This document shows positions 8,055-54,357 of a stretch of 64,000 nt of DNA, piece by piece (the first letter of the stretch is position 1; each line of letters starts with the position of its first letter). The stretch comes from Vibrio sp. JC009 (GTDB lineage Bacteria; Pseudomonadota; Gammaproteobacteria; Enterobacterales; Vibrionaceae). Below the pieces are notes generated by a model, which had not been told where the DNA came from, searched no databases, and saw nothing but the letters and a program-made list of their open reading frames with translations. The position numbers were made by a program, and so were the translations under genes. The stretch spans positions 1,984,001 to 2,048,000 of the forward strand of contig NZ_CP092106.1 of the NCBI RefSeq assembly GCF_029016485.1. Direction: 5' to 3'.

Positions 8055-8159
8055 GGAAGCAGGCAGGTATTGATAAGCAGACCGTCCTTGCCAGGGATGG
8101 CAAGGTCGAACCCCATGGATGGGTTAATGTGTGTCTGTGTTCAATACCTGCCTGCTTCC
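8055..8159 (+). repeat. fold-back element copy 1: 67-nt core inside 19-bp inverted arms
   Basis: Perfect 19-bp inverted repeats (8055-8073 and 8141-8159) enclose a 67-nt core. The core matches that of the element at 54249-54357 (opposite strand) at 64 of 67 positions, while the arms of the two copies share nothing beyond the innermost GA/TC. Inside the core, CCTTGCCA/TGGCAAGG forms an 8-bp hairpin, AACCC/GGGTT a second one, and CAGAC/GTCTG extends the closing stem past a small internal loop. The fold is thus a long stem ending in a three-way junction. No T-run follows, so it is not a plain terminator. It sits between cmoM and mukF. Strand given is that reading TAAGCAGACCGTCC. Confidence 0.85.
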
Positions 8160-12838: not shown

Positions 12839-12952
12839 GGTCACGACCAAGGCAAACCATTTGAAAAAATGGGACGCAAAGCCACCGGCCTTAGCCTATA
12901 ATTAGTTTAACCAACTGATTTTAATAGAAAGGCAGCGGGGTTGCCGAAAGCA
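12839..12952 (+). promoter_or_regulatory. c-di-GMP-I (GEMM-I) riboswitch controlling tfoY
   Basis: The aptamer shows the hallmarks of class I: GGTCACG at the 5' side, GGCAAACC, the P1b hairpin CCATTT-GAAA-AAATGG with its GAAA tetraloop, the invariant GGGACGCAAAGCC, CCGGCCT, and the 3' half AGGCAGCGGGGTTGCCG. It closely resembles the structurally solved V. cholerae Vc2 aptamer, which also lies upstream of the tfoX-like gene VC1722 (tfoY). Downstream, a 9-bp hairpin (12963-12971 with 12982-12990) sits inside AAATTAGC/GCTAATTT (12952-12959 with 13011-13018). This can serve as the expression platform before the tfoY start at 13067. Confidence 0.95.
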
Positions 12953-54248: not shown

Positions 54249-54357
54249 GAGGCAGTTGTCAGATATCGAACACAGACACACATAAACCCATCCATGGGGT
54301 TCGACCTTGCCTTCCATGGCAAGGACGGTCTGCTTATCGATATCTGACAACTGCCTC
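54249..54357 (-). repeat. fold-back element copy 2: 67-nt core inside 21-bp inverted arms
   Basis: Perfect 21-bp inverted repeats (54249-54269 and 54337-54357) enclose a 67-nt core, 64/67 identical to the core of the 8055-8159 copy on the other strand. The three differences fall in the loop and adjacent pair of the CCTTGCC hairpin and one unpaired base, so the fold is kept. The arms are unrelated to those of copy 1. It lies between pflA and yfbU. The strand given reads TAAGCAGACCGTCC, so the transcript of the flanking genes carries the complement, just as in the cmoM-mukF gap. Confidence 0.85.

Follow-up and report, generated by a model that had tools for sequence, protein, structure and literature searches.

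The window analysed here, a stretch of 64,000 nucleotides, contains two copies of one short core, at positions 8055-8159 and 54249-54357, each closed by a perfect inverted repeat whose arms differ between the copies, raising the question of how a stem can change its sequence and yet remain paired. The initial annotation had offered two answers, namely that the stem is selected as an RNA or DNA structure or that the element spreads by copying one flank as the inverse of the other, and had further held that the arms of the two copies were unrelated and that no named family was of this kind. Our comparisons demonstrate that the pairing of the closing stem is conserved far more than its sequence.

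The two copies of the window

Both copies were present as annotated, their cores being 96% identical over 71 nt (blastn) and their arms perfectly paired over 17 bp in copy 1 and 19 bp in copy 2, or over the 19 and 21 bp previously given when the inner GA/TC is counted. The proposed junction, with two hairpins on a shared stem, was likewise obtained with RNAfold (Table 1). When the loops were checked for AYGGAY, hairpin 2 was found to carry ATGGAT in both copies and hairpin 1 to carry AGGGAT or ATGGAA. No promoter-like or terminator-like site was found at copy 1.

Table 1. Parts of the two element copies in the window
Feature	Position	Strand	Remarks
Copy 1, left arm	8055-8071	+	17 nt, pairs with 8143-8159
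Copy 1, conserved core	8072-8142	+	71 nt
Copy 1, inner stem GCAGAC	8077-8082	+	partner 8133-8138; RNAfold, RNAalifold
Copy 1, hairpin 1, CCTTGCC-AGGGAT-GGCAAGG	8086-8105	+	RNAfold, RNAalifold
Copy 1, hairpin 2, AACCC-CATGGAT-GGGTT	8109-8125	+	RNAfold; 3 of its pairs kept by RNAalifold
Copy 1, right arm	8143-8159	+	
Copy 2, right arm (element orientation)	54249-54267	-	19 bp stem
Copy 2, core	54268-54338	-	71 nt
Copy 2, left arm (element orientation)	54339-54357	-	

A dispersed family in the genome

A chance resemblance between two copies is excluded, since the 5.2-Mb genome to which the window belongs (G000) holds 23 copies by blastn and 48 distinct places by R1, a covariance model made solely from those 23 copies (the 150 candidates scored out of 1267 gave 57 rows, 9 of which lie antisense to others). 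The 30 best copies (L045-L074, at least 86 bits, hereafter the strong copies) include the main type, and the 18 weaker places (within L104-L119) hold related types built on the same two-hairpin plan. The element is ~105-120 nt long, and its arms pair over 17-25 bp in the 26 copies measured. At the first 23 loci it lies mainly in gaps between large, mechanically called ORFs, in mixed orientation relative to these neighbors, and the strong copies are distributed over both strands of two large contigs (11 plus, 19 minus). About 10 kb before the window, a further locus (L115, G000:C1:1973600-1974400) carries three tandem copies of a related type, ~155 bp apart and almost alike in their arms.

Outside the arms of 26 G000 copies we found no shared inverted end, and 5 of the 40 flank columns reached the 99% random level of 0.33 bit, the highest standing at 0.57. 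The weak signals included an A before the stem in 14 of the 26 copies and a C after it in 15. No target site duplication was recognised around these 26 copies, where the column signals are weak and the empty sites too diverged.

Pairing is kept as the stem changes

In an RNAalifold alignment of the 23 copies, 28 of 38 pairs had changed on both sides in at least one copy with pairing kept, including every one of the 13 pairs in arm columns 7-19. The arms of 22 of the 30 strong copies, the other 8 lying outside the reach of the anchors used, gave 374 cells, of which 339 were Watson-Crick, 31 G.T, none A.C and 4 other. This excess of G.T over A.C indicates folding of a single strand, either of RNA or of single-stranded DNA, and supports the earlier suggestion that the stem is selected as a structure. 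Because orientation is mixed with respect to genes and contig strand (the comparison being with these rather than with the direction of replication), the bias implicates the sense strand of the element itself. The model alignment of G000 (53 distinct rows) contained 966 Watson-Crick, 93 G.U, 12 A.C and 37 other cells, with 7 of the 12 A.C held by five antisense rows. Model rows from other genomes (65 rows, 1321 cells) comprised 984 Watson-Crick, 168 G.U, 26 A.C and 143 other; with these 143 other mismatches, pairing elsewhere in the family is less strict than in G000.

The claim that the arms are unrelated failed once the whole family was considered. Over 13 arm columns in 19 of the 23 copies, 198 of 234 standard pairs had the prevailing purine/pyrimidine orientation, against a null mean of 146 and a maximum of 161 in 2000 draws. 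Mean arm identity was 64-68% in 25 of the 30 strong copies, compared with 47% for shuffled arms; these are gap-tolerant identities, column-based ones having been set aside for register shifts. Of the arm differences, 639 of 1237 on the left and 581 of 1191 on the right were transitions, whereas composition predicts 37-38% and the flank columns gave 33-37%.

Arms and core vary independently

Arm and core distances did not correlate among the G000 copies: in the 16 pairs whose cores are at least 97% alike the arms were 65%/64% alike, and in the 284 other pairs 68%/65%. At orthologous loci in the same orientation (10 sets, 26 pairs, which are not independent) the corresponding values were 0.81/0.80 for the arms and 0.93 for the core, the difference in the arms thus being about three times that in the core. 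Uniform drift fits these data badly. The decoupling in G000 implies something beyond steady drift, either change at copying or the overwriting of cores, and it agrees with the proposal that one flank is copied as the inverse of the other. Between L045 of G000 and L210 of a second genome, G335, the left arm is unchanged and the core is of another type. Arms are also common to dispersed copies in the genomes G040, G273 and G219, in Yersinia similis and at the G000 places L104/L114, and so there is no rule that every copy receives new arms. Copy-specific arms were seen in G000 and in the metagenome-assembled genomes (MAGs) described next.

Copies in MAGs and in IS630-type MITEs

In MAG SB0675_bin_1 and the Pseudomonadales MAGs (18 rows) the arms were copy-specific and near-perfect, with 479 of 504 arm cells Watson-Crick, 9 G.U, 2 A.C and 14 other (9 of these in L373), and with 219 of 546 arm differences being transitions. 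Three pairs of these copies, L369/L459, L359/L364 and L384/L429, are identical in the core and different in the arms. An outer (G)TCG is kept in 14 of the 18 rows, so that the variable arms lie mostly inside a conserved outer end and are not copies of the target flank there; on this point the flank-copying proposal did not hold.

A different setting was seen in G219, where the core lies inside 164-bp MITEs in 7 of the 8 copies looked at. Their ends match an IS630-family element of the same genome (L355, G219:C2:1131741-1132915), a 1175-bp insertion sequence with a 347-aa transposase (NF033545, 245.6 bits; PF13358). Matching IS630-type ends stand beside the elements of G037 and G262 as well, and, judged by these end matches, the core probably sits in IS630-type MITEs there too. 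In G040 and G273 the copies end in short inverted repeats of another kind, and their arms hardly vary. Unlike in G219, no IS630-type or similar eroded ends were found above control in the flanks of 26 G000 copies, the best end score averaging 6.52 in 52 flanks and 6.44 in 208 control stretches.

Locus history and orientation

By blastn of 3-kb loci, one of the 30 strong copies (L045) had an orthologous element in G335, for which 14 of its 16 elements were fetched, and none had one in G253, where 13 of 14 were fetched. A G335 counterpart could be placed for 13 of the 30 sites, of which 12 were empty and 1 filled, and the remaining 17 were not located; L070 and L153 belong to one region and occupy different sites. 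As this fairly close relative lacks the element at the located sites, the G000 copies were mostly gained in this lineage. The genes beside the element are syntenic in relatives, but the intergenic DNA is too diverged for an empty-site comparison, and the comparison of orthologous gaps proposed earlier thus delivered the 12 empty sites without revealing an ancestral arm. At the empty G335 site of L009/L050 there is a terminator, GGGTGGC..CCACCC, the G000 arms there being AGGTGGC..GCCACCT. By eye, the empty sites of L053, L055 and L070 have no matching hairpin and that of L046 has an unrelated one.

Comparison of the element's strand with the orientation of its flanks revealed opposite orientations in 7 of the 9 multi-species locus sets, namely g10 loci A, B and C, two g8 loci, L207/L226 and L076/L211 (a weak match), and none at L045/L210/L101 or L075/L077. 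The genus g10 (8 genomes) has three shared loci, with both orientations at each, and at its loci B and C a remnant of an older arm lies beside the inverted element. At g10 locus A, an element-free site in G081 (L237) keeps one arm and may be ancestral or a deletion.

Named relatives and taxonomic spread

The view that no named family resembles the element proved mistaken: its relatives include YPAL/RU-2 of Yersinia, RF02770 and, below cut-off, RF01731. The YPAL repeats of Yersinia are reportedly the subject of De Gregorio 2006. Like the G000 element, YPAL/RU-2 is scattered through intergenic regions and has the same core of two hairpins; it is longer, at 168 bp against ~105-120 nt, and its arms in Y. 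similis are near-constant and less well paired, in contrast to the copy-specific arms of G000. Its published descriptions give this length together with target duplications of 3-26 bp (PMC2229807, PMC2759123) and targets that span or adjoin dyad symmetry (PMC2229807).

A 27-mer from the core of L110, a G000 copy at C1:14892, recurs exactly in the Y. similis copies, which by eye match the YPAL/RU-2 sequence published in Table 1b of PMC2759123, and two of which are matched by R1 (E 7e-17 and 1.3e-14). The same 27-mer has exact matches in at least 120 stretches from named genomes. Among the matches listed most are Y. similis, the others being Y. pekkanenii, Stenotrophomonas, Methylococcaceae-type records, Pseudomonadales MAGs, Alishewanella, Arsukibacterium, Thalassolituus, Idiomarina and more. 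All 15 loci tested from other genera, which had been picked by their shared 27-mer, gave an R1 match with an E-value of 4.5e-9 or better. Closer to G000 the distribution is patchy: with strict filters R1 matched 37 of 296 genomes of the family, and a blastn search with the core gave hits in 3 of the 61 genomes from the genus, with G000 counted in both. Judged by sequence, then, the element is a member of a gammaproteobacterial superfamily that includes YPAL/RU-2. Blastn of copy 1 gave no match in plasmids or phages, and blastn of the L110 type none in plasmids, phages or the E. coli collection; in viral contigs there were no exact matches for a 24-mer and one for the 27-mer.

At the Rfam gathering thresholds the element in the window had no match. 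The best match of the window copy was RF01731, the TwoAYGGAY RNA described in Weinberg 2010 (PMC2864571), at 32.1 bits (E 0.0014), and the whole of G000 contained five matches to it at E 0.01 or better, the best at 40.3 bits, compared with none in 14 control genomes. The two share two hairpins, ATGGAT-type loops and a long, weakly conserved outer stem, but all G000 copies score below the cut-off of 43. RF02770 (Ysr224), a model of an sRNA read from the other strand, scored 133.9 and 129.9 bits with two YPAL copies of Y. similis, on the strand opposite the R1 match (overlaps L363 1814-1920 and L365 5814-5920), and thus the annotated sRNA Ysr224 may be a repeat; its scores for the window copy and L110 were 22.1 and 36.0 against a cut-off of 70. 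Elsewhere in the window, positions 12842-12949 (+) hold a c-di-GMP-I-GGC riboswitch aptamer (RF03167, 71.5 bits).

REP/RAYT systems are described as a GTAG- or CGTC-tagged palindrome of 20-40 bp with a RAYT (PMC3733652). Integron attC sites were considered as well and set aside, since the copies are dispersed. Our literature search returned no title joining TwoAYGGAY with YPAL, which is no proof of absence from print, and none on paired variable stems in Vibrionaceae repeats.

Discussion

The element is most likely a mobile or once-mobile one whose core is constrained in sequence and whose stem is constrained mainly in pairing. On balance we favor, with moderate confidence, a dispersed, mostly intergenic, structured and YPAL-like element, mobile at least formerly, in which the stem drifts by paired changes and the core is held. 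Under this account the element would move now or would have done so in the past, and a protein would read the core and require a folded strand with a stable closing stem, whether this strand is an RNA transcript or single-stranded DNA. The stem would drift in paired steps, with transitions through G.U in excess, and in other genomes of the genus an IS630 transposase would carry the same core inside MITE ends. The strand bias of G000 favors such selection after single mutations; the MAG set, with its few G.U cells and its share of transitions, weighs against G.U drift. One dispersed superfamily joins a type near an Rfam RNA of unknown function, an Rfam "sRNA" and a Yersinia repeat class, and offers a natural setting in which to ask how a stem changes almost completely and stays paired, and whether a strand-specific fold drives spread.

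Stems may instead be rewritten, one arm being resynthesised from the other by snap-back or template switching during copying or hairpin replication with the core kept, in which case insertions would each have a perfectly paired stem of their own and the core would not change. Re-templating of one arm is favored by the rarity of G.U among the MAG copies and by the independence of arm and core distances, and also by the three MAG pairs with identical cores and the arms that are more alike at one locus across species than between copies of one genome. We nevertheless consider rewriting unlikely, given that a pure DNA process should give A.C as often as G.T, which the arm cells of G000 contradict, that copies share arms in G040, G273, G219, Y. 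similis and L104/L114, and that no site was secured with one demonstrably ancestral arm, g10 locus A possibly being a deletion. Its stronger form, a mobile hairpin that re-templates an arm at each copying and has produced private perfect stems in at least two separate gammaproteobacterial lineages, strikes us as quite doubtful.

It is also rather unlikely that the arms are bound to their loci and that the core turns over, being overwritten, inverted or replaced by recombination or by insertion into old elements. The L045/L210 pair, the frequent opposite orientations and the older arm remnants at g10 loci B and C speak for such turnover, but cores are conserved between species at unlinked loci too, so that constraint alone explains much; moreover, conversion tracts of ~70 bp between diverged arms would be short, and the 12 empty sites among the 13 located in G335 mean that those arms are not ancient. 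A further reading is that the element inserts into the loops of hairpins already present, for instance rho-independent terminators, and takes its outer arms from them. This would suit the terminator at the empty L009/L050 site, which resembles the G000 arms, and the dyad symmetry at YPAL targets noted in PMC2229807. It is very improbable in view of the other G335 empty sites, the lack of a terminator-like site at copy 1, the purine/pyrimidine pattern that the arms keep family-wide and the outer ends conserved in most MAG rows.

To return to the preferred structured element with a drifting stem, its opposite orientations probably arose by flipping between the inverted arms or by reinsertion, and it may serve to ask how frequently such arms invert the DNA between them in bacteria. 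Small inversions linked to hairpins in plastids offer a possible parallel. In the single intergenic gap of L045/L101, different species carry different element types. The same was seen, in the same orientation, in the gaps L146/L153, L130/L225 and L028/L218, which lie outside the nine multi-species sets. Different types in one gap would reflect either preferred sites or replacement in place.
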